Positions 2,416-55,195 of a stretch of 64,000 bases of DNA are shown here, in pieces. The position numbers were made by a program, and so were the translations under genes. Positions within the stretch are counted from its first letter, which is position 1; each line of letters begins with the position of its first letter. The notes under the pieces were generated by a model, which saw only the letters and a list, made by a program, of their open reading frames with translations, searched no databases and was not told the DNA's origin. The DNA is from Prostheceraeus crozeri (Eukaryota; Platyhelminthes; Polycladida; Euryleptidae), in NCBI GenBank assembly GCA_907163375.1, contig CAJQUW010007080.1:89966-153965 (forward strand). Reading direction: 5' to 3'.

Positions 2416-3002
2416 GAGAAGCAAGAAGAAAGAACTGCAATTTCAATTCACTTGCTAAATTGATGCTTGGTTTATTACAAACTGCTGATTAAATCATCAG
2501 TGCCATTTCATTTGATTTCAATTCAGACTTTGCAGAAATTTGTTAAACGCAAAATCAATGCGTAGACTTGAGATGTGCAATTACTAAAATTAAGTGAAAT
2601 CTCTGCCTGTATTCATTAAATACTACTTCAAACACACCACTGAAATGTTTTCCAAGTTGGTACGCCTGTGATAATTAACAAGTGCTGCTTTTTGCAATGA
2701 AAATCCATCTGTCAACGTTTAGAATGAAAAGATGATTCATTTAAGAGATCGAAAGTAAGAAATATTCGAACACAGTTCGAGTTGTTGATCATTTCGAAAT
2801 AGAACTTTGGAATGATGAAATGCTTCCACTCTCCCTCTCTAATGACATTTTCATGCGAATGATGATGTTGAGAAATGTTGAAAATGATGTTTTGATTATT
2901 CTACTTTCTTATTGAAGGAATGATTCAACTAGAATGATCTGAATTTGTTCAATGTGTGAAAATCCTCCATTTCTGATTGTCTTGCATTTGTTATCTCTAC
3001 AG

Positions 3003-3358
3003 CAACGCTCTTCAAGATTGTCAATCAACTTGACGATTTCAATGATGGAAAGAACTTCGTCTTCGCTGCAAAATTATCTTCTCATCCAACTGTGGGAGAA
3101 GTGCGGGCGGTGATTGCAGAGAGAGTGAAGAAGGACAAGAAGTTGATTTCCGTGAGAAGACAGGTCGGGATATTCAACAAGAAGCCCGTCTTCTGGAATA
3201 GTCACTGTTACTCGGATATGAGCGGAAACGTGTGTGAGAGTGATGCAGTCAAAGAGGGGAGAACGGTAGATCTGCGTGCCGGTGGTGAACAGCTGCCAAT
3301 CCTTCCTGATGATCAGAACGTGTTCTTTGTTGCTGCTGCCGACGGTCCTCCAAAATGA
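3003..3358 (+). CDS. Candidate 3'-terminal coding exon, unknown protein
   Basis: A pyrimidine-rich acceptor (ATCTCTACAG, ending at 3002) precedes an open frame of about 117 codons ending in TGA at 3356-3358. The protein is soluble, lysine-rich in its first half (VKKDKKLISV) and ends LPILPDDQNVFFVAAADGPP. No ATG lies in this exon before the body, so it would be spliced to an upstream exon that I cannot find. The mirror copy at 49376-49732 keeps the last 88 codons open but has one extra base upstream. Between arms I count 13 replaced codons against 2 silent changes over those 88 codons. A beta-grasp-like character (TVGEVRAVIAERV) is only a guess; I do not recognise the family. Confidence 0.45.
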
Positions 3359-6766: not shown

Positions 6767-8546
6767 GTGCTTGCTTTTCTTTGCAGGAAACTCTCGGCTC
6801 ACGAAGTAATGTTGATGTTGGAAGAGGAGGATATCCTTGACGCTGAAATTCATTTGACCCCTCCAGATGATCAAAATTCTGATGGCGATAGTGGCGACGA
6901 ACATATCGATACCGAGCGAAACACTTTCGATAACCTAAGTGCGGCGATACTGAATTCGGAGGCTGGTTGCACATTGCATCGTCCGAATGGTATGAGAGAT
7001 AATTTCCCAGATGAGGAGGATGAATCCGATGTACAACAGAAGCAACCGAAGAAAACATTCTACAAAAAGACTGAAAGAGATGATCGAAAATGGAGGAAGA
7101 AAGATCTGTCCCGAAATGTCAACATTCACCGACCTTGGATCGAGAAGCAGAGTGAGGTTATTCAAAGTGATCCCAGCCCTACAGAATTATTCAAGCTTTT
7201 CTTCGATGAGGAGGTGATAATGCATATTGTTACACAGAGCAATTTATATGCAAGACAAGACAAAGGAAACCATTCGTGGTCAATGGATGAAGATGACTGC
7301 TACATATTTCTTGCGATTCTCCTTCTTTCTGGTTACGTTCCACTTCCTCGAAGGCGCATGTTTTGGGAGAAAGATGCAGACTGTCAAAATGCAGCTGTTG
7401 CGGAATCCATCAGCAGAAATAAGTTCTACGACATATTCAGTTTTATTCATCTCTGTGATAACAGCAAAATTAATAAAAATGACCGGGCAGCAAAAATTAG
7501 AGAGTTCTATTCTTTGATCAATGAAAGATGCCAAAAATTCATGCCTTTGCAAAGGAATATCTGTATCGATGAAACAATGCTTCCTTATTATGGAAGGCAT
7601 CCATCAAAGCAATTTATTCGTGGAAAGCCGATAAGGTATGGTTTCAAGCTATGGACACTTGCAACTAGTAACGGTTACGTGATTCGTTTTGATCCTTACA
7701 CAGGAGCCTCTTCTTCTAGTACTAATTTGGGCTTGGGGCCCTCAGTTGTTTTAAAATTAATCGAAAGCCTGCCTGATTTACCGTTTCACCTTACATTTGA
7801 TAATTTCTTCACAAGTCTCCCATTGATTGAAGAACTCAGTCGAAGAGGAATTGAAGCCTGTGGAACTATTCGTTCAAATCGAATTGAGAATTGTCCACTC
7901 ATTGACCCAAAAAAGCTGAAGAAAGATGGACGAGGCTCTCTGGACTTCCGGAAAGATGAGACAACCTGCCTATTGGTTTTAGAATGGCATGATAACAATA
8001 TCGTCACTTTGGCTACGAATGCTGACACCATCGAGCCTGTATGTAAAGCACGTCGATGGTCCAGAGAAGAAAAGAAGTTTATCGATGTTCCCATGCCCAA
8101 AGCAATTCAAACATATAATGAAAGCATGGGCGGAGTAGATCGGTCTGATCAGAATATTTCTTACTACAGAATCAGTATGAGGTCCAAAAAATGGTGGTGG
8201 CCGTCTTTCAGTTCATGGCAGTTCAAAATTCGTGGATTTTATATAAAAAGGCCTCAACATATGAGCGCGAGCCGCTGGATCTTCTAACTTTCCGCCGGCA
8301 AATCGTAAAAACCTTGTTGATGTCTCACAAGAGAAAGATCTTACCAAGGCCATTATCCCGTCAACAGAGAAGTTTGAAGCGAAGGGTTCCCGATGATGCA
8401 AGATACGACGGAAAAATCATTTCCAGTGTGACATGACTACTCAAAAGCGATGTGCTTTGTGCGGAAAAAACAATCGTAGGGGCTGTCAGAAGTGCAACAT
8501 TGGACTTCACAACCACTGCTTCAATGTTTTCCATGGTGCTTTATAG
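6767..8546 (+). pseudogene. piggyBac transposase, two frameshifts
   Basis: A DDE-type cut-and-paste transposase. The first frame (6767-8287) has an acidic N-terminus and the piggyBac catalytic core: D268 in CIDETMLPYYGRH, D345 in LTFDNFF and D458 with D461 in GGVDRSDQ. This matches the spacing of the family's three aspartates. After KKWWWP (about 8195-8215) the reading shifts to the frame that yields QNSWILYKKA and PLDLLTFRRQIV. A second one-base slip in an A run near 8415 leads to the C-terminal cysteine-rich zinc domain (CALCGKNNRRGCQKC, then HCF) and a stop at 8544-8546. The natural start may be the ATG at 6809, since a 3' splice-like CTTTGCAG ends at 6786. Probably not active as it stands unless the slips are sequencing errors. 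Confidence 0.93.
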
Positions 8547-22218: not shown

Positions 22219-22273
22219 ATCCACTTTCTCCGGCCACTTTCATCGTTGGTCTGGACATTTCTTTTGACTTCTT

Positions 22274-23026
22274 TTGAGTCAAGTCATGTCACCCACACCT
22301 CCAAGGACTAGATCCAACAGCACAGCTCCTACTCTGCTGACATTAAAGGAGGTCAAGAAATTGCTCGATGACAACAGAAAGGAGATAGTCAGCTTGCTGA
22401 GACCTCAACTGGACAACATTGTCTCTACGGTTTCAGCAATTAGCCAGAGAATGGAAGGTGTGGAGAAATCTGTCTCAGACATGAAGTCGCTGGTTTCGAG
22501 GCATGAAGACGAAATAGCTTCAATCAAGCAGTTTCTTGAAAGGATGTCTCCAGATGAGTTATGTCGTCCTATGTTTCAGGAAATAGACGAACGCATTTAC
22601 AGGGTCAACAACGTTATTGTTGCTGGCTTAGCCGAATCTGATGGTTCGCTTGAGGTGAGGAAAGCAGAGGATTGGAGGAAAACTGAGTCTTTGTTGGCTG
22701 AAGTTGGCAATCCGATCGAGGTTGAATCCATTGTCTCTCAACAGCGTATCGGCCACCCCGGTTCACGAAAACCTAGGCTCTTGCGTCTTACTCTCACTGA
22801 TGTTAATTCGCGTAATGTTTTACTACGAAAGTCCAAGGAATTGCGGAATTCGGCAAGTTTCCGAAACGTGTATGTGAATGCTGATAAGACTCGTGCTCAA
22901 CGTGAAGAGTTTAGAAGACTCAAAGAAGAACTGAGAGAACGCAAAGCAAACGGCGAAGATGTTATTATATATAAACAACGTGTCGTCGTTCGGAAGGGAA
23001 CTGGATCCAATGGAAATTTTCGGTGA
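22274..23026 (+). CDS. LINE ORF1 protein
   Basis: Of 250 residues, the N-terminal 20 are Ser/Thr/Pro-rich and basic. Residues about 25-95 form a heptad-like helical stretch (coiled coil; VSTVSAISQRMEGVEKSV). The rest has the RRM-like and C-terminal layout of L1-type ORF1p: NNVIVAGLAES as the first RRM strand and a basic ending (RAQREEFRRLKEELRER). Such proteins bind the element RNA and act as nucleic acid chaperones. The stop TGA at 23024 overlaps the ORF2 ATG at 23026, suggesting coupled reinitiation. Intact. Confidence 0.85.
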   Translation: MSQVMSPTPPRTRSNSTAPTLLTLKEVKKLLDDNRKEIVSLLRPQLDNIVSTVSAISQRMEGVEKSVSDMKSLVSRHEDEIASIKQFLERMSPDELCRPMFQEIDERIYRVNNVIVAGLAESDGSLEVRKAEDWRKTESLLAEVGNPIEVESIVSQQRIGHPGSRKPRLLRLTLTDVNSRNVLLRKSKELRNSASFRNVYVNADKTRAQREEFRRLKEELRERKANGEDVIIYKQRVVVRKGTGSNGNFR

Positions 23027-25619
23027 TGGATTTTACCTCTGACAATCGTAATCGAAAGTATCCTTCTCTAATGCTCATGAATGCTCGATCGCTTTTGCCA
23101 AAATTTGATGAGCTATGTGCTGTCTTGTCTTCCTTACGTTCGGGAATTGTGTTGATAACTGAATCGTGGTTACATTCCAACATATCTAATGAACTGATCT
23201 GCGTCAGCGGCTATGATCTGTATAGGTCTGACCGGTCAGGTCGCATTGGTGGTGGAGTTTGTGCCTACATCTCCTCTTCCTTGCCATGTGTGTCAATTAA
23301 CAGCTATCCTTGTCCATGTGAAATTGAGTTGCTTTCCTTGAGAGTACCTAATTTGAATTTATTTTTGATTTGTACGTATATTCCACCTGGTTTGAAGGTA
23401 AATGTACTCAAGATGATCTCTGAGTGCATAATTGATATGTTGGATGCCGAGCTTTTGAAATATCCTGATTCAAATGTAATCATTAGTGGTGACTTTAACC
23501 AATTTGACTCATCCATGTTCTCTCATCAATTTTCATTGCGCAATTGTGTGACGACACCTACACGAAATACCTCCCTACTGGATCAGATTTGGATCAATTC
23601 TGACCTCTCTGATTTTTACGAGCACGAAGCCTCGGTTGGTCCTCCAATTGGTTCATCTGACCACAACACTATTCTGCTAGCCAGTAAAGATGATGATGTT
23701 GCGTGTCGTAAAAAACTGACCAAAGTCTGGGACTTTCGAAGATCAAATGTAGAAAGGTTCAACTATCTTCTCTCTGTTGGACTGGCTCACTTTGAGCTGA
23801 ACACGGCTGGTTTATCTATTGATCACATGTGCCTTGAGTTCTATTGCATCGTTCAAGCAGCGTTATCATTCATTCCATTCAGCTACGCTTTGCTATCTAA
23901 AAGGGATAAACCTTGGATGAACCCAATACTGAAGGACCTCATCAACAAGCGGTGGAGAGCTTTTAGGGAGAAGAATTGGCCTTTGTATGCTCACTACAAA
24001 AGGAGAGTTAACGAGGAATTGACGAAAGCAAAATTGAATTGGACCAAAAAGCAGATCAAGTCGTCCAAGAATGTTTGGCGAGTTGTTAACGATGCTCGGG
24101 GCAAATCCAGTTCGAATAGCTTTGATGCTTTGATAGCCAGTCTTGGCGGCATAGAACCCTTTCTGGCTTCTGTTCAACAAGAACTTGAAAAGAATTTTAA
24201 TGATGCTAGTGATGATGATTTGTGCACTCTTAATGATGAATTGTGGGATTTTCAAGTTGATCCTTTTGATGTTTTTCAAGCACTTATACATCTGAAGTCA
24301 TCCACAGCAGCTGGGAGTGATGGTATTCCGAATCGCCTTATCCGTGAAGCTGCTGGAGTAATATCTGAACCGCTTGCGACTATTTTCAACAAATCCATTG
24401 ATGATCGTGTGTTCCCTGCAGCTTGGAAATTGGCCGACGTCATCCTCATCCCTAAATGTCGCAATCCTACAATCGCCGACTTTCGCCCAATATCGCTGAC
24501 TCCAGTGTTCAGCAAGGTTTTTGAAAAGTTAGTTCTAGGTTCGTTGATGGCCAGCTTAATTCCTCTGTATGGACCTCATCAGTTTGCATTCAGAAGGCAT
24601 GGGTCCACGGAAGGGGCACTTGTTCGTGTCCATGATTCTATCACTGAGTTTTTGGACAAACCTGATGTCATGGCTGTAAGGATGACGTGCCTTGATTTGT
24701 CAAAGGCTTTTGACAAAGTCTTGCCAAGTCTACTGATCAATCGCATGTGTTGTACTAATTTAAATCATAGATTCATCATCTGGCTTGTAAGCTATCTAAC
24801 CGGGCGGTCACAAAGGCTCAAGGTCAATGGTGTCTACAGCTCCACGCGGGCTATCTCATCTGGAATTCCTCAGGGGTCAGTGATGGGCCCGGTTCTGTTT
24901 GCAGCTTTTATGGGATCTTTGACCATCGATTCTGATTCTGTCGTTGTTTTGTATGCAGATGACGTTACAATTATCGAGCCAATTTGCGCACTGGACTCGG
25001 GCCGAATAATCTGGTTACTATTCAAGATTGGACAATCAAGAACAAAATGTCCCTGAACATCAGGAAATCTCAGCAACTTATCTTTCAAAAAAGCTCGACA
25101 GGTGCATTTGCATATGCTGACATTGGTGTCTTCAGTGAATTCAAGATTCTGGGTGTCACTTGGAATAATAGACTTACGTGGAACTCACATTTTGATATAA
25201 TTCTTAAGCTTGCATCACAGCGACTTTATGTAATCCGTGTCTTAAAATCTATTTTGTCACGTGATCATTTGGTTTTGGTCTATCACTCAATCATTTTGTC
25301 AATTCTATTATATGCTGCGCCACTTTTTGTGTGGTTGCCAAGTTCTGTGGAGCATAGGCTCGAATGCTTTCACAAAAGAGCGCACAAAATAATTTGTGGC
25401 AGGAACTGCTCCTGTGATTGCTTTCCTTCTCTCTCATCAATGAGAGTAGAACGTGCGTTGAAGTTTTTTGCCAAATGTGAGTCTTTCAGTTCCCATCCAT
25501 TGCATTCACTTGTGCCAAAGCGTATGTTGAGAACTGGACACCTTTGTTTGCCACATATCAACACTTCCAGGAGACTACATTCTTTTTTCCCGTGGACGTC
25601 TGTTCTTTTAAACAAATAA
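23026..25619 (+). pseudogene. LINE ORF2: endonuclease and reverse transcriptase, one frameshift
   Basis: The N-terminal part is an APE-type endonuclease: LMNARSLLPKFDEL, LITESWLHS (catalytic Glu), VIISGDFNQ and GSSDHN (the SDH motif, near residue 211). The reverse transcriptase follows: FRPISLTPVFSKVFEKLV, LDLSKAFDKV, SSGIPQGSVMGPVLF and YADD at about residue 643. The frame then slips between about 24984 and 25056, and the tail (KMSLNIRKSQQLIF, KILGVTWNNRLTWNSHFD) continues to 25619. The protein would nick target DNA and prime reverse transcription there. The slip makes this copy inactive if real. Confidence 0.93.
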
Positions 25620-29460: not shown

Positions 29461-31191
29461 CTACCATAACCACATTTTGTAGCACCCACTAATGTTTTCC
29501 TGTTTATTTTTTCTCAATTGCCGGAGTAGTGAAGGAGGCTGACGGTATGTGCGCCTTATTCTGTAGTCTCTAAAAGTCGGATGCACTTTTAAACCAGTGA
29601 AGATTGGATTAATAACGTCCCGGAAAAGTTTCGGATTATTCGGGTTATATGTGGAAATAAAGGGAATCGTTAAACTGGAATGTTGGTTTTTCTTCACCCT
29701 ATTGATCTCACTTTTTGCTTTTGATATCGAATCATTGATTAGAGGCATTGGATAGCCAAGGGCAAGTAGTTGATTTTTCAGTTCATTGAAACGTACTAAT
29801 TTTCTTTCAGATTTCGATACTATTCTGCTTTCTCTGTTCGCAAGGGTGTATGGAATATTACGAATGACATGATTAGGATGGCCGGAATTAAACGGGGCAT
29901 AGTTATGACCATCCGTAGGTTTATAGAATATGTCAGTCTCAACTTTGTTATTTTCTTTGTAAACTGTTACGTCCAAAAAATTCAATTTATCTCTGTTCCA
30001 TTCCATTGTAAAATTTATCTTGCTATTCATATTATTCAAAAATTCATGAAACTCTTCTATGTCCCCAAACGAGTCCCTCCAAATCACAAAACAGTCATCC
30101 AAGTACCTCACCCACTGCAAGTAATCAAAATCATTTACATTCAAAATATTTTTCATATGGGCGTACATTTTCTCTTCCAGGAAGCCAACTGATAATGATG
30201 CGTATGTAGGGGCGAGTCTTGTGCCCATAGCGGTACCAGAAATTTGAAGGAAAAACCTGTCCTCAAAACTGAAGAAATTATTGTTCAAGACAATAGAGAT
30301 TCCTTTCAATATGAAATTAGTTGTATATCTTTCTTCGATCAAATCTCTGTACTTTTCTATCCAAAATTCAATTGCTGTAAGTCCTAAATCATTATCAATA
30401 TTTGTGTATAGAGATGTTACATCAAAAGACACAAAGGACGAATTTTCCACAAATGTTGGTAACTTGGAGATGAAATGAGAGCTATCTCTACAATAGCTGG
30501 GAAGCTTCAAAGTTAAAGGCTTCAAAATTTCATCTAAGAAGAAGCTCAGGTGATTAGTAAGCCCTTTAGCGCTTGATATGATAGGGCGTAATTTTAAATT
30601 TTCTGGTAAGTTGATTTTAGCGTAGCCATATTTATCCATCGATTCTAAATCCACATGTAAGCTCGCAATTTTATGTATTTTTGGCAGTCCGTATATAAAA
30701 GGGATATCTGCACTAAATTTACTAAGATACTTAGTCTCTTTAGTCGTTAAACACTGGCTGAAATCATTACAGTATCTTTTGATAAGATTTTGTGTGCTAT
30801 TAACATCATATTTAAAAATGGGTCTATAGGTATTCGTGTCATTTAAATGCTCATCGTAGATGCAATTCTTATAATCCTCATAGTTCATTATCACGAACGA
30901 TCCACCTTTGTCGGCTTTTGTTATATGTATATGCTCTAGATCACGAAGGTTTTTCAATGCAATTTTCTCCTCCCTGCTTACATTACTCTTCCTTTTCGGT
31001 ACATTTTCTAATTTTTTAGTTTCCTTTAGCATAACATCTATGTTGTTATCCAGAACAGGGTTCAAACCTTTGGGTGGTTCAAAATTCGTATCATTTTACA
31101 TTTGCATTGTAGTTGATGTGGCATTTTCTTCTATTTGATTTTCATCTTTAAAGTAATCTATTTAACGTAGTCTTCTACAGAAATACACCGT
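29442..31191. other. Spacer at the palindrome centre
   Basis: About 1750 bp of single-copy sequence between the two arms, almost entirely filled by the reverse transcriptase frame of a Penelope-like element on the minus strand. Its linker and endonuclease part continues without a gap into the left arm, so the spacer belongs to the left-arm element and the right arm carries only the inverted 3' part. Confidence 0.85.
29461..31065 (-). CDS. Penelope-like element reverse transcriptase
   Basis: Of 534 residues, the motifs in order are ITKADKGGSFVIMNYEDY (about 48-65), IPFIYGLPKIHK (about 120), LRPIISSAKGLTNHLSFFLD, SFDVTSLYTNI (motif A), GTAMGTRLAPTYASLSVGF (motif B), RYLDDCFVIW (motif C, catalytic DD) and KLNFLDVTVY. 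This is the PLE type of RT, related to telomerase, which works with a GIY-YIG endonuclease. The frame is intact but ends early: in the next frame ATKCGYGRCECCHYI, the cysteine linker, joins the endonuclease, so a one-base slip lies near 29480. It fills the palindrome spacer. Confidence 0.93.
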   Translation of the reverse strand: MNPVLDNNIDVMLKETKKLENVPKRKSNVSREEKIALKNLRDLEHIHITKADKGGSFVIMNYEDYKNCIYDEHLNDTNTYRPIFKYDVNSTQNLIKRYCNDFSQCLTTKETKYLSKFSADIPFIYGLPKIHKIASLHVDLESMDKYGYAKINLPENLKLRPIISSAKGLTNHLSFFLDEILKPLTLKLPSYCRDSSHFISKLPTFVENSSFVSFDVTSLYTNIDNDLGLTAIEFWIEKYRDLIEERYTTNFILKGISIVLNNNFFSFEDRFFLQISGTAMGTRLAPTYASLSVGFLEEKMYAHMKNILNVNDFDYLQWVRYLDDCFVIWRDSFGDIEEFHEFLNNMNSKINFTMEWNRDKLNFLDVTVYKENNKVETDIFYKPTDGHNYAPFNSGHPNHVIRNIPYTLANRESRIVSKSERKLVRFNELKNQLLALGYPMPLINDSISKAKSEINRVKKNQHSSLTIPFISTYNPNNPKLFRDVINPIFTGLKVHPTFRDYRIRRTYRQPPSLLRQLRKNKQENISGCYKMWLW

Positions 31192-38120: not shown

Positions 38121-38546
38121 CCCACGGTGTGCCCAAATGGGTCGGATTACCAAAAAAATTCACTAAACAAACAGTTATCATTTTCTGTTAGAGAGCACTA
38201 TTCTGAGATTTTTAAGACCAAAGCGAAAATATTTCATCGAGGGATTTTGATTTTAGAGCAATTTTTCGTTTTTTCTATATTGAGCTCTAATTAATGACAC
38301 AACGATACAAGAGGAGCTATCGAAAAAAAATTCACTAAACAAACGGTTGCCATTTTATGTTATAGAAAAATATTCTGAATTTTTTAAGACCAAAATGAAC
38401 ATTTTTCATCGAGGGATTTCGATTTTATGGTCATTATTTGTTTTTTTATATTATAATTTTCCATAATTAATGGGAAAAATTTCTCATGAAAATACTGAAG
38501 AAATCACTACACAAAAGATTGCCATTTTCTGCCATTTCATTTCATG
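38121..38546 (+). repeat. Left terminal inverted repeat of the RAG1-like element
   Basis: Complementary to 41670-42086. It consists of subrepeats starting at about 38161, 38333 and 38515 (period 172-182 bp), each opening with TCACTAAACAAAC or a variant, then CATTTT.TGTTA and later CATCGAGGGATTT. After the heptamer (38123-38129) and 23 bp comes an A-rich nonamer-like AAAAAATTC (38153-38161), which matches the recombination-signal nonamer at 6 of 9 places; an A run makes this weak evidence. Confidence 0.85.
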
Positions 38547-39135
38547 TGAAAATGTTGTATCTGGTTTGAAGCGTCCATTGTGATTCACAAAAGTATAGAA
38601 ATCTAAAACAATGATTCTCATTTGTTTACTACGATGTGTGTACAACGGACTGTTTCATTTCGTGCAATGTTGAAGATATACATCTGCCGTTCTATGGAGG
38701 AGCAAGCGCGCGGATAAAAATCAATTTCTATGGTTTGTGCAGATTGAAATCGTAATGCACAGCTGTCGCGACCAGAGGTCGCCTGGTGCGCGCCCACCCT
38801 TATCTGTGCATTGTATCGTTGCGAGCGCGCTATCATATTTTGATTCCAGTCATTAATTAATCGGTCGGAACAACAATAGCAAATTGACGTCTAAGTGAAT
38901 ACTTGTCACGAGCATTGAGACGGTTCAGGATAAGTGCTATTTCCTAATTGATTTGTGTATTGCGAATGACGCACAATCTAATTTGCTTGTTTCACATGTT
39001 ACATGAAAGTTCTTTAACGTCTTGTTTCACCAGGAGTACTTAATAGGCAAGTCAAATTTTCTGACTTTATCAGAACGGTCATTTTGTAAATGCATGTACA
39101 TGTAGTATAGGCTATTATACATTGTTTCAGATCAG

Positions 39136-41231
39136 ATGCCTCCCGTCAGGACTCATGAGCAAAACCGAAAACTCGTCTGCCTTATCTGTTTCAACAAGGC
39201 CAAGACAATGCAAAATATAACGAAAGCCCTGCACGAACTTATCCAGAAGCATGTACTTCAAGGATATGACCCAGTCGACAGTCGTCTTCCATCTGTTCTC
39301 TGTGGAACTTGCCAATCTGCAATACTGAAAATGGAGAAAGAGCAGTCTACGATACCATTAGAAATTTACGACCACTCCAAAGTTGCTGCACAAGCTCCCA
39401 GAACTAGACTTAGGGCACAACAGGAGACAGAATGCACATGTGATTGTAAGGTCTGTGAAATAGCCCGGTCGACTATACATCATGATGGAGGATTGAAGAA
39501 GCGCAGAGTTGGACGACCTCTAAACGACGAAAATTTCCAAACACATCATTCCAAGCCAAAAGCGATACGTATCTGTTCATTCTGCCTATCTGAACTCATG
39601 CCCGGAAAAAGTCACGTTTGCACAAGAAATACCAGAAATACAAACATAGAGAACTTGGCAATTAATTCTTCACCGAAGGTAAAATCTTTGCAATAGAATG
39701 TCCATGTCATTATACAACTGTACCTAATACACGATTATTTTTCAGGCAATGGAAAAGGCAATGTCAAGGGTAATAAGATCTCAAATGAATGCATCCAGTG
39801 ATGACTCCCCAATCCAATTGGCCACTTCTTCACGTTCGCCCTTATACCTACAACCAAGCAATGACGACATTCGTGGTCAGGATTATTGTCCTGTTGGAGC
39901 TCTTACAGCAAGGAACATGAATGAGATTCAAAAGAACCTGAACCTTAGTGTAAGAAAAACACACAAACTTGGAAGGTGTTTGCGAGAGAATGCGTTGGGT
40001 TCTGATGGTGTGGACAGAAATTTAAGAAGAAAGCTATTCGAACAAGATCACCAACTAGATGATTTCTTCGAAAAGGAGGATATTACGTATGTGAAACTAT
40101 CAAAAGATAACATTGTTGAAAATGCAACATATCCTACAACAATCTGCAACGACATCCAATCCTTAATTGATAAAGTTATCGCTGAAAGAAATCTACCAGC
40201 AGACGATGCTTTGGTCAGAGTGGGAATCGATGGAGGGGGAGGGTTCCTCAAGATCTGTGTGTCCATCTTTGATATTCACAATCAGCATTCAACATCAACA
40301 AACTTCAAGGATTCAGGTGTAAAGCGAATATTCATCGTGGCAATAACTCCCAATGTACAAGAAAATTATGTCAATTGCAAGAAGCTCTGGAACGCTGTGG
40401 GTCTCCACAAATTGAAAAGACCATTTACAATTGCTAGCGATCTGAAGCTATGCAACATCTTACTTGGGATCATGGCTCATGGGAGCAAACATTCTTGATG
40501 TTGGTGTTCATGTGAAAAGGAACGGTTACATGAATTAGGTGAACTGAGAACGATAGGTACTATGAAAAAGGATTTCTGGAACTACTACGACGACGGAAAA
40601 GTAAAAAGTAGAGCGAAGAATTTTAGCAACGTTGTTCACCCATCAATTCTTCAAGGTAGAGATGATGAACTGGTATTGGAGAAGGTGCCTCCACCCGAGC
40701 TCCACCTTCTAACAGGTCCATTCAACAAATTGTATGCAACACTTCTGGAGAAATGGCCAGGAGCTGTCAACTGGCTCAAGCAGTGCCATGTTGAGCGAGA
40801 TCCACTACATGGTGGCAGTTTTAGCGGAGATGCTTCCCGAAAATTGCTGAAGAACGTGGATATCCTGGCATCGATATGTCCATTGAATTGCTTGCCATTG
40901 GTTGCGGCAATGCGAAGTTTTAAGAGTCGTTGAAGCTTGTTATGGACATTCTGTTTCGTCAAATCTGGATGAATTGGTGGACGATTTCAAGACGAAGTAT
41001 CTTGATCTTCATATTGCTGTCACACCCAAGGTACATGCAGTGTTTTTTCATGTACCACAATTTTGCAAGCGAATGGGGCGTGGCTTGGCTCCGTATAGTG
41101 AGCAGACATCTGAGTCGCTCCATCACGACTTCGACCTAACATGGCAAGACTACAAGGTGCCGGACAGACATCCGATTTACAGAGAAAGACTGCTAGCAGC
41201 TGTTCGAGCTTACAACAGCAGAAATCTGTAG
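39136..41231 (+). pseudogene. RAG1-like transposase: RAG1 N-terminal cysteines plus DDE core
   Basis: Exon 1 (39136-39678) ends at a GTAAAA donor. A 67 bp intron (39679-39745, ending TTTTTCAG) precedes exon 2, phase 0. Exon 1 residues C15/C18, C56/C59, C104/C107 and C147/C150 with H160/C162 form pairs spaced as in the RAG1 N-terminal region, including CKVCEIAR then GLKKRR (RAG1 has CxxC followed by AR and GLKR). Exon 2 has GIDGGGG (D343, first acid), TIASDLKLCNILLGI (D413, second acid), a CWC zinc motif, SFSGDASRKLLKNVD, and FFHVPQFCKRMGRGL then SEQTSESLHHDF (the catalytic Glu). This is the order seen in RAG1 and Transib. Breaks: TGA at 40496-40498 within HS-CWC and a one-base slip near 40920. 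No RAG2-like frame is present. Confidence 0.85.
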
Positions 41232-41581
41232 CACTTGAATCTGATCATTGTTGCATATTATCAATACATAGTTCATGTATTCTACACTGATTTTTTTGTT
41301 GGTTTCCGTTTTAGGCTTATTTTGAGCAATAAGCGTAATAGAATAGAATAGAAAAATGATATAAGAAAGAAATTGCAACATGCATAATACATGTACATGT
41401 ATATTAGGTGGGTCTAATCAAAAATAGGAGTAGCCTATATATAGGCCTATAGATTAAACTGATACAAAGTAAAAGGTCTACACATATAATATGGTACAAG
41501 CTGTATTGCAGATGCTAAAACCAGATTACTGTATAGTAAAAATGAAATCATCAGTCTCTCAGAAACAACTGAAATCCTTTT

Positions 41582-42086
41582 TGCCATGAGTTGGAGCCAA
41601 TAACCATAAAATCAAAACTCCTCGATGAATAATGCTTCTTTTGGTCTGAATAACTCAGTTCATTTTTCTATGGCAGAAAATGGCAATCTTTTGCGTAGTG
41701 ATTTCTTCAGTATTTTCATGAGAAATTTTTCCCATTAATTATGGGAAATTATAATATAAAAAAACAAATAATGACCATAAAATCGAAATCCCTCGATGAA
41801 AAATGTTCATTTTGGTCTTAAAAAATTCAGAATATTTTTCTATAACATAAAATGGCAATCGTTTGTTTAGTGAATTTTTTTTTCGATAACTCCTCTTGTA
41901 TCGTTGTGTCATTAATTAGAGCTCAATATAGAAAAAACGAAAAATTGCTCTAAAATCAAAATCCCTCGATGAAATATTTTCGCTTTGGTCTTAAAAATCT
42001 CAGAATAGTGCTCTCTAACAGAAAATGATAACTGTTTGTTTAGTGAATTTTTTTTGGTAATCCGACCCATTTGGGCACACCGTGGG
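41582..42086 (-). repeat. Right terminal inverted repeat of the RAG1-like element
   Basis: The part 41670-42086 mirrors the left end. A third subrepeat continues inward to about 41582 (CATCGAGGAGTTTTG, complement) that the left end lacks or has lost. The last bases are GGGCACACCGTGGG. Confidence 0.85.
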
Positions 42087-42998: not shown

Positions 42999-43370
42999 TC
43001 AATGAAAGGTTGTGCTTCCATTTCGCACGGCACTTGCGACAATTTCGATGGCCCCACGTACTTTGGCTGTAAATGGGCCCTTGTCGGCTGATTGTAAGTC
43101 CACAACTGGAAATGTTCGCTCTGACTGGCCTGAGTTTGCCTGAACTGCTAATATTTCTCTTGCTACCAGAGACAACAGCAGGAAATCATCTCTGTGTTCT
43201 CGCCAGAATGATAATATTCCGACACGCGTCACAGGTTGTGCAATGGAACTGTCGATTTCATCATCAATTTTGTCTTGCAAATTGCATGTCGTTTCTTTTT
43301 CTGGTGCATCACGAAGATTATCAAATATATCACTGCTTTCCAAATCATGATCAACTCTTCCACGCTTCAT
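42999..43370 (-). pseudogene. hAT transposase C-terminal fragment, right arm
   Basis: Mirror of 13793-14160. FWREHRDDFLLLSLVAREI, LAVQANSGQSERTFPVVDL, then AIEIVASAVRNG: the hATC dimerisation region. 123 codons open from the ATG at 43370. Confidence 0.8.
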
Positions 43371-43804
43371 GCACGTGATTGGTGAGGCGTATTCGATTGA
43401 AATTTCTCACAATTCTCAAGTCAGTCCTCAACTTACACCCACGATCTCAATGTTGCGAGCCGTGCAATCTTGAAGTGATGTAAATGTCCTGATTGGTCAG
43501 AATTCAGACTTGAATTCACACTACTCAATGAAAAATGCTTTTCTGACCCCTCGCGACTAGTTCTGCCTGTGATCATCAGTATTGAGAAAAGCAACCATTA
43601 TTTAATGGATCGCTGCAAGTTGGCTTAATGGAAGTGATGTATTTTCAGGCCCCGCGCACTCCGGCCCGTGTTAGTTGCGAAATAGCAGACCCTACCCGGC
43701 CCGGGTCACTTACAAGTCTGCGCAACACCACCCTCTCCTCCCTTAATGTTGGGTCTTGGGTTCACTCTTGGGTTTTGGGTAGTCTTGGGGTGCGGACCCA
43801 AGAG

Positions 43805-49375: not shown

Positions 49376-49732
49376 TCATTTTGGAGGACCGCCGGCAGCA
49401 GCAACAAAGAACACGTTCACATCATCAGGAAGGATTGGCAGCTGGTCACCATCGACACGCAGACCTACCGTTCTCCTCTCTTCGACTGCATCACCCTCAC
49501 ACACGTTTCCGCTCACATCAGAGAAACAGTGACCATTCCAGAAGACGGGCTTCTTGTTGAATATCCCGACCCCTCTTCTCACGGAAATCAACTTCTTGTC
49601 CTTCTTCACTCTCTCCGCAATCACCGCCCGCACTTCTCCCACAGTTGAATGAGAAGATAATTTTGCAGAGAAGAAGAAATCCTTTCCATCATTGAAATCT
49701 TCAAGTTGATTGTCAATCCGGAAGAGCGTTGC
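49376..49732 (-). pseudogene. Mirror copy of the unknown terminal exon, frameshifted upstream
   Basis: The last 88 codons are open as in 3092-3358 and end FFVAAAGGPPK. Between the acceptor side and that part there is one extra base (GGAAAGGAATTT against GGAAAGAACTTC), so the exon as a whole is out of frame from the splice site. Confidence 0.5.
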
Positions 49733-50109
49733 TGTAGAGATAACAAATGCAAGACAATCAGAAATGGAGGATTTTCACACATTGAACAGATTCAGATCAT
49801 TCTAGTTGAATCATTCCTTCAATAAGAAAGTAGAATAATCAAAACATCATTTTCAACATTTCTCAACATCATCATTCGCATGAAAACGTCATTAGAGTTG
49901 GAGAGTGGAAGCATTTCATCATTCCAAAGTTCTATTTCGAAATGATCAACAACTCGAACTGTGTTCGAATATTTCTTACTTTCTATCTCTTAAATGAATC
50001 ATCTTTTCATTATAAACGTTGACAGATGGATTTTCATTGCAAAAAGCAGCACTTGTTAATTATCACAGGTGTATCAACTTGGACGACATTTCAGTGGTGT
50101 GTTTGAAGT

Positions 50110-53313: not shown

Positions 53314-53697
53314 CTATGTCCAGGGCAGGAGGAAATCACTAACAGAATCTGTCATGATACATAGCTTGAATCGTTTTGATAAAATGGCCTCAGTGATCTT
53401 GACATGTTGTACATTTCTGCAGTATGCAACGACAGAGAAATAGGACTCGATCTTATGTCCGGAGAATTGATTGCAGTCCCAGAGATGCTTTGATATTGAG
53501 GTGGTTTGATCTTTAAGGCCTCTCAATCTTGCTGCTGCCCACTTGGGATGGTGCTCTTTGATTAGGATAGCAAGACATCTCGTTGTCCGACCAATATAAC
53601 TGCATCCGCAGTCGCATTTGAAATTGTAACAGACGTTTGACCGGTCAACGAGAGGAATTGGATCCTTCAAAGAACGACAAGTGACCTTTTGTTTCAT
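53314..53697 (-). pseudogene. PLE GIY-YIG endonuclease fragment
   Basis: The 127-codon minus frame has NVCYNFKCDCGCSYIGRTTR, the GIY-YIG core, then LIKEHHPKW and SISKHLWDCNQF, typical of Penelope-like endonucleases, and ITEAILSKRFKL at the end. It is a different PLE family from the one at the palindrome centre. No reverse transcriptase lies upstream, so it is a truncated copy. Confidence 0.85.
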
Positions 53698-55195
53698 GAC
53701 GTTATCTTGTGATCAGAGTCATCGAATATATCACATTATATCATGAGTTTATTTCTATTTTCTTTACTTAATTTAAGTCATTGCATAACAATTTTCTTTT
53801 CCTTTCCATAAGTTCTTGGCTTGTACATGTACAAGCATACACATTTGTTGGAGTGGCACTGTTGGTCTACGACATGCAATATGAACTAAATACGTAATTT
53901 TGGATTACCAAGACGGAGTAAGTCAGTGCGTAGTTTAGATAATTGACAAATTCGACATATCATGCTCATGTACTGTATCCACATGCACATTTACGAGAGT
54001 GGTGCTGAATGCCTATGCCATACATGTGAAGTTAAATATGGATATTTGGATTGATAAGAATGATTCAATAACAAATTAGCCATGATAGTAGTGATGAAAG
54101 ATTGTCGATTCTACGAGTCGTACAAAACAATCACTGTGGCAAAATCAGACTTAACGTGCAATGTCGACATTCTGAAAAATGGTCAGAATGAAAAAACCAT
54201 TGTTACAAATGACCAAAAACATTTCATTTCAATCATGCAATACTGAGAGAGTAGTTGTTGTACGTCAAGAGATCGATGTGTTAAATCAAGCATTTTTAAG
54301 GAAGATCTTTTTCATATGAAAATTTATGCCCAGGGCATCATGTGGCTTTCATCAGAAAACAATATAACTTGCATATCTATGAACTATCTGCAAAGCCGAA
54401 TTTCAAATTTGCAATGAGAAGTAATTACATTCGAGCCCATAGCTTGAAATGTTTGTTCAATTTTGTCACTGAAAAATGTCACAACTGCATGTAGAGAGAA
54501 AGAGTGTTTAAAACGATGCGTAGAATGCCTACATCACTTGCATCCGATCATGAACACATTGAATGAAGTCTAAGGGTCAAAAGTAAATGTGATGACATAT
54601 TTCTAAATGAAAATGATTGAGGTTTAACTTGGACGAAATGTGGAAGAGATGTGAAGACTTTGGAATAGATACAACAGGAAAACACAAAATGTTTTGGCGT
54701 TCCGGCGTTAAAAGGCGTGATTCCTGAAGGTTGATCCAGTCATCACCCAATTGATGTTGTGTGATCATCTGCAGCAGAAAGACTTCGACAGACCAGCTTT
54801 TCCATTCATTCGTTGTTCTTTTCATCTAGTTTTTTGGATTTCGAGCTATTCTGCTTTGTGTGCATATTGAACTCTCATCCTCAAGTGCAATCATTGCAAT
54901 GTTGATTCCGGTAACGAAGATGTGTATTGGCATCAAAATGAGACCTTATTTGATCATTTTTGTTGGACAATTAGAAAGTTATGTTACATTGAAATTTGGT
55001 CACAAGTTTTATGCCACACCCTGTATCTCCTCATACGTAAAAAACAGTTGAAATGATTTTTTCCAATCATACGCAAAAGTGCGCGCGTGAAGAGCCGGCG
55101 CTCGACCGTCGCCGGTTCCACTCATGATAGCTATCATTTCAAAACAAAATCCACATCCTTGAAAAACTGAAAGATTTTGTTTCAATCGAGTGCAA
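53698..55195. other. No gene seen
   Basis: Unique AT-rich sequence. Small ORFs at 54577-54825 and 54860-55051 have no recognisable domain. A short GC-rich palindromic-looking patch is at 55082-55120. Confidence 0.6.

Follow-up and report, generated by a model that had tools for sequence, protein, structure and literature searches.

Within a 64,000-nucleotide stretch of the polyclad flatworm Prostheceraeus crozeri (contig CAJQUW010007080.1, positions 89,966 to 153,965; referred to here as the window), we found a 3,962-bp element at positions 38123 to 42084 that runs from a terminal CAC to a terminal GTG and carries a transposase gene on the plus strand. We are highly confident that it is a cut-and-paste DNA transposon of the Chapaev superfamily (CMC/CMCT clade) and belongs to a recently mobile family in this 2.05-Gb genome. 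The element is flanked by terminal inverted repeats (TIRs) of approximately 417 bp, the left at 38123 to 38540 (plus strand) and the right at 41670 to 42084 (minus strand). Identity between the two arms is 98.6% across 417 bp and 100% across the outer 38 bp, and each arm contains an offset repeat of a unit of approximately 171 bp at 75 to 83% identity. An initial annotation of this DNA had given the same CAC start and had set the boundaries at 38121 and 42086. Since 28 of the 43 genomic TIR matches begin at base 3 of that query, and since the target site duplications (TSDs) of other copies directly adjoin CAC and GTG, the true ends are the CAC at 38123 and the GTG at 42084; the earlier boundaries included 2 bp of flank at each end.

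The transposase gene consists of two exons on the plus strand. Exon 1 (39136 to 39678, 181 amino acids) encodes an N-terminal zinc region, probably of the Chapa type, in which a first module at residues approximately 7 to 72, resembling zf-AD (ZAD, PF07776), is followed by CxCxxC, an AT-hook-like GRP motif, and CxxC...HxC. Exon 2 (39746 to 41231) encodes a DDE core with the RAG1/Transib fold, assigned from the relative P0001. The GT..AG intron between them (39679 to 39745, 67 bp) recurs with unchanged boundaries and length in 7 of the 12 other copies that were aligned; of the remaining sites, two have an altered donor, one contains a stretch approximately 1 kb longer, and two are noisy. The stop and the slip noticed in the initial annotation are an in-frame TGA at 40496 to 40498 and a frame change in exon 2 near 40.92 kb. 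The only other frames of at least 80 amino acids within the element, of 90 and 111 amino acids, lie on the minus strand, and neither is a RAG2-like partner gene. Approximately 595 bp and 440 bp lie outside the TIRs and the transposase, which is too little for such a gene.

The read-through protein (675 amino acids, with X at the two breaks) matched 158 proteins at E<=0.01. The best among the matches listed, P0001 (E 1.4e-180), shares 45% identity with it from end to end, and the resemblance is therefore not due to chance. We aligned 71 of the 120 relatives listed, picked by eye for near-full length; the 49 omitted were mostly of lower coverage, and all counts out of 71 apply to this selection. 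Three of the matches listed carry an organism name (Brassicogethes, Pseudolycoriella, and Macrostomum). A profile of 13 distant relatives recovered 17 proteins from 7989 candidates scored, and none of 47 pattern matches in IMG/VR was confirmed. Separately, Pfam DUF1280 overlaps the core in P0247 (28.3 bits, cut-off 25) and in 17 of the 71 relatives (best E 7.1e-05), and DUF1280 may be a piece of a Chapaev-type transposase.

The two catalytic aspartates are encoded at 40229 to 40231 (read-through residue 343, aligned with human RAG1 D603, mouse D600) and 40439 to 40441 (residue 413, human D711, mouse D708). The candidate catalytic glutamate is the second E of SEQTSES at 41112 to 41114 (residue 637, human E965, mouse E962). 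These residues are identical in 71, 71, and 70 of the 71 relatives, respectively. The LH motif (PPPELHLL) lies at 40700 to 40705, and the H(4)H motif at 41034 to 41051 (residues 611 and 616, aligned with human RAG1 H940 and H945). The TGA takes the place of the first residue of C(2)C, a cysteine in all 71 relatives.

Our data indicate that this Chapaev family was recently mobile. A TIR search of the genome (2.05 Gb, 14,165 contigs) returned at least 43 matches, a lower bound, and we fetched 20 of the stretches. An exact 4-bp TSD, without evident consensus, flanks every one of the 11 other copies in which both ends could be read, and no TSD extends to 5 bp. One of these 11 was paired by us from two ends 14 kb apart on the same contig; L009 and L018, each with one unreadable end, were left out of the count, and the other fetched stretches were single ends or an array. 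Counting aligned columns, exon identity to the window copy is 97.9 to 99.6% in 10 of 12 aligned copies, and the other features of the same ten copies are 93.9 to 100% identical. Both exons are open in 4 of the 12 (L011, L013, L016, and L019), in line with the expectation that intact relatives would exist. L018 and L020 are approximately 99% identical to the window copy at one end and drop to 87 to 88% in some other parts. Exon swapping, suspected from their poor exon 1 protein matches, was dropped in view of the DNA identity and the many small indels near contig ends, and the divergence suggests assembly noise. The array, L027 (G000:C13937:32600-42000), holds four tandem units of a Chapaev TIR plus 5' half at a spacing of approximately 2,252 bp. 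Its first unit has the same left flank as a complete copy in L015, and the array is either a tandem duplication or an assembly artefact.

Hallmarks published for Chapaev are CAC/GTG termini, a TSD of 3 to 4 bp, and a transposase carrying C(2)C, LH, and H(4)H, according to excerpts of PMC4079192 (the other papers cited here are likewise represented by excerpts). The family shows all of them, with the first cysteine replaced by the stop in the window copy. The multi-cysteine, putatively Chapa-type region is conserved in the family and was aligned with the RAG1 N-terminus, with Chapaev itself compared by description. Chapaev, Transib, and RAG1 have been placed in one wider clade that shares C(2)C and H(3-4)H (PMC12730594). 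The core is RAG1-like and the N-terminus probably so, as had been proposed from the letters alone; the element itself is a Chapaev transposon by its 4-bp TSD and its C(2)C, LH, and H(4)H motifs, and its transposase is a distant relative of RAG1/Transib. RAG1 and Transib were the best structural matches of the core model of P0001. The RAG1/Transib-type core with three acids is thus borne out, with D, D, and E in register with RAG1, and misalignment with RAG1 D600, D708, and E962, which would have spoken against it, was not observed for any of the three.

We also found that the cysteines of exon 1, initially described as RAG1 N-terminal-type, align with the N-terminal zinc region of RAG1. With hhalign this alignment scored 22.3, and 0 of 200 shuffles scored as high. 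In an earlier setting the score was 19.0 against 100 shuffles with a mean of 12.0 and a maximum of 19.3; the better figure came after changed settings, in which the window row and 8 distant relatives were added, the region was trimmed, and the window row served as reference. The first zinc module is predicted to adopt the zf-AD fold in a model of exon 1, for which Foldseek ranked ZAD chains first with a best E of only 0.16. Relative P0242 matched Pfam zf-AD at 33.1 bits (cut-off 28), the window's own fragment was unmatched by this Pfam model, and a profile of 16 zf-AD-like modules recovered no ZAD chain by sequence from the PDB. The first module of exon 1 is zf-AD-like, as is that of RAG1, weakly, and this likeness is therefore no clear sign either way on whether exon 1 belongs with unrelated zinc fingers. 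We note that PDB entry 21wb_A is a 137-residue solved chain of RAG1 (V(D)J recombination-activating protein 1) covering profile positions 95 to 226, the region at issue; it is not among the listed rows of the fold search, the library of which ends in April 2026.

One could hold that exon 1 resembles the RAG1 N-terminus because small zinc folds have converged, with the element being Chapaev regardless. We consider this unlikely given the shared H..CxxC..P..CxxC..CxxC order, the result of the shuffles over the full region, and the independent choice of zf-AD at E<=10 by 6 of 10 RAG1 and 10 of 16 Chapaev fragments. A shared Chapa domain has, furthermore, been published (PMC4411706, in the part available). 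Common descent is preferred here, and the exon 1 zinc region is probably a distant cousin of the RAG1 N-terminus.

Very improbable, in our assessment, is that the element is a RAG-like (ProtoRAG/TransibSU) or Transib transposon, despite its CAC termini, its best structural matches, and its N-terminal alignment with RAG1. TSDs are invariably 5 bp in protostome RAG-like (RAGL) elements and predominantly 5 bp in ProtoRAG and Transib, and complete protostome RAGL elements have a RAG2-like partner (excerpts of PMC7204232). This reading is contradicted because the TSD here is 4 bp, and the element has no room for a RAG2-like gene. Pfam RAG1 (PF12940) gave no match in 4 window pieces or in 10 further relatives and was absent among the 25 listed of 62 families for the 71 relatives, whereas amphioxus RAG1L (6b40) matched a vertebrate RAG1 profile at 2.2e-94. 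HAUS4 and NifH matches on window pieces fell below cut-off and were taken as spurious. The Pfam RAG1 profile found no match in the P. crozeri genome, an uninformative result since the control genomes gave none either. Gar RAG1 gave 33 matches there, all to query residues 244 to 400 (RING and edges) and none in the catalytic core, which is weak evidence that this genome holds no RAG1L core. Scarcely credible is a chimera of a Transib-type core with a recently captured, unrelated zinc-finger exon: the two halves do lie largely in separate exons and the first module does resemble zf-AD of insect regulators, but core and N-terminal region occur together in relatives down to approximately 31% identity, and nine cysteines are conserved in 67 to 71 of the 71. 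Given that these relatives were chosen for near-full length from the 120 listed, the coupling is shown to be old, not universal.

The Chapaev transposase would pair the two TIRs through its subunits and, judging from its fold family, cleave at CAC/GTG with a RAG1-like, RNase H-type two-metal DDE site, with C(2)C and H(4)H presumably supplying the ligands of a core zinc. The ends would then be joined to 4-bp staggered target sites in a cut-and-paste insertion. The window copy is no longer able to make the enzyme; it keeps good ends and therefore could be moved in trans.

Several points weigh against our interpretation. The family is assigned to Chapaev by its published hallmarks rather than by a tree with Repbase Chapaev sequences. 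The window copy has no exact TSD (CCCC on the left, GGCC on the right); CCCC recurs 2 bases farther out on the right, in a C-rich stretch from which we conclude nothing. No sequence search tied the family to RAG1: neither phmmer with the read-through protein nor a profile of the 71 relatives found a RAG1 chain in the PDB at E<=10. The hhalign probabilities against RAG1 were low (1.7% for the whole, 36% for the core, and 12% for the N-terminus). Structure and spacing therefore carry the link to RAG1. Other spacings depart from those of RAG1, at 70 against 108 (D1-D2), 45 against 60 (LH-RKL), 65 against 82 (RKL-H), and 4 against 3 (E-E). Finally, we infer only as most likely that the zf-AD-like module dimerises and that the GRP motif grips an A-tract approximately 20 bp inside each end.

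We tentatively raise the possibility that the N-terminal regions of RAG1 and Chapaev begin with a dimerisation domain of the ZAD type and, after it, an AT-hook-like GRP motif, together a two-part end-gripping module older than the split of Chapaev from Transib/RAG and later rebuilt as the nonamer-binding system of RAG1. ZADs are known from C2H2 regulators and are not known from transposases; in the open-access literature we found nothing that joins ZAD with Chapaev or RAG1. Under this reading, the RAG1 N-terminus and the ZADs found in insect regulators would go back to a common origin, with transposons possibly the source. If confirmed, the zf-AD link would assign the RAG1 N-terminus to a fold family and point to its likely function.

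The initial annotation saw new bearing on RAG1 assembly in the presence of both halves in one element, a point already answered in print. An N-terminal Chapa domain common to Chapaev, TransibSU, and RAG1 was reported by Kapitonov and Koonin in 2015, who also described a RING finger in two Chapaev subgroups and inferred a common ancestor in which the core was already joined to Chapa and RING (PMC4411706). N-terminal zinc motifs were described in RAG1-like transposons by Martin et al. in 2020 (PMC7204232). Here, the architecture with both halves belongs to Chapaev. The element is ordinary in kind and well preserved, and zf-AD in Chapaev and RAG1 is a suggestive side result. With its open copies and the 4-bp TSDs measured here, this recently mobile Chapaev family is useful for studying RAG1-fold transposase function without RAG2.

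The window contains further repeats. A 505-amino-acid open frame at 6767 to 8281 (plus strand), which we take to be a piggyBac-type transposase, matches Pfam DDE_Tnp_1_7 at E 1.4e-80, and a long interspersed nuclear element (LINE)-type element at 22268 to 25616 (plus strand) matches reverse transcriptase (E 1.2e-19) and, more weakly, endonuclease. A hAT dimerisation-domain relic (E 2.5e-7) lies at 43002 to 43406 (minus strand), approximately 0.9 kb beyond the Chapaev element. Frames at 29464 to 31095 (544 amino acids) and 53317 to 53712 (132 amino acids), both on the minus strand and without a Pfam match at E<=0.01, presumably correspond to Penelope-type reverse transcriptase and GIY-YIG pieces. 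Two 132-amino-acid frames at 2960 to 3355 (plus strand) and 49379 to 49774 (minus strand), approximately 46 kb apart in opposite orientation, are nearly alike over their first 70 residues and represent another repeat family; the one checked against Pfam gave no match.

Among known systems, N-RAG-TP of Aplysia resembles the present element in having a RAG1 N-terminal-like protein in a transposon; it is entirely N-terminal-like in the second-hand account of a 2021 hypothesis article (PMC8355894, in part), and the comparison is by description only. Transib has 5-bp TSDs and, in the excerpts of PMC4411706, no identifiable domain beyond the core. ProtoRAG, RAGL, and TransibSU share the N-terminal zinc motifs, the RAG1-fold core, and the CAC termini (PMC7204232, PMC4411706, in part), and differ in that their TSDs are 5 bp long, complete elements carry a RAG2-like gene, and the sequence is far nearer to RAG1. 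Chapaev3, as partially described, has 3-bp TWA TSDs in contrast to the 4-bp TSDs here. Chapaev is alike in its CAC/GTG termini, 4-bp TSD, C(2)C, LH, and H(4)H motifs, and N-terminal zinc region joined to a RAG1-like core (excerpts of PMC4079192 and PMC4411706), and the Chapaev element Garfield_BM also has two exons in the account available. Within Chapaev, this family is distinguished by its TIRs of approximately 417 bp with internal repeats, and its nearest protein among the matches listed is 45% identical.
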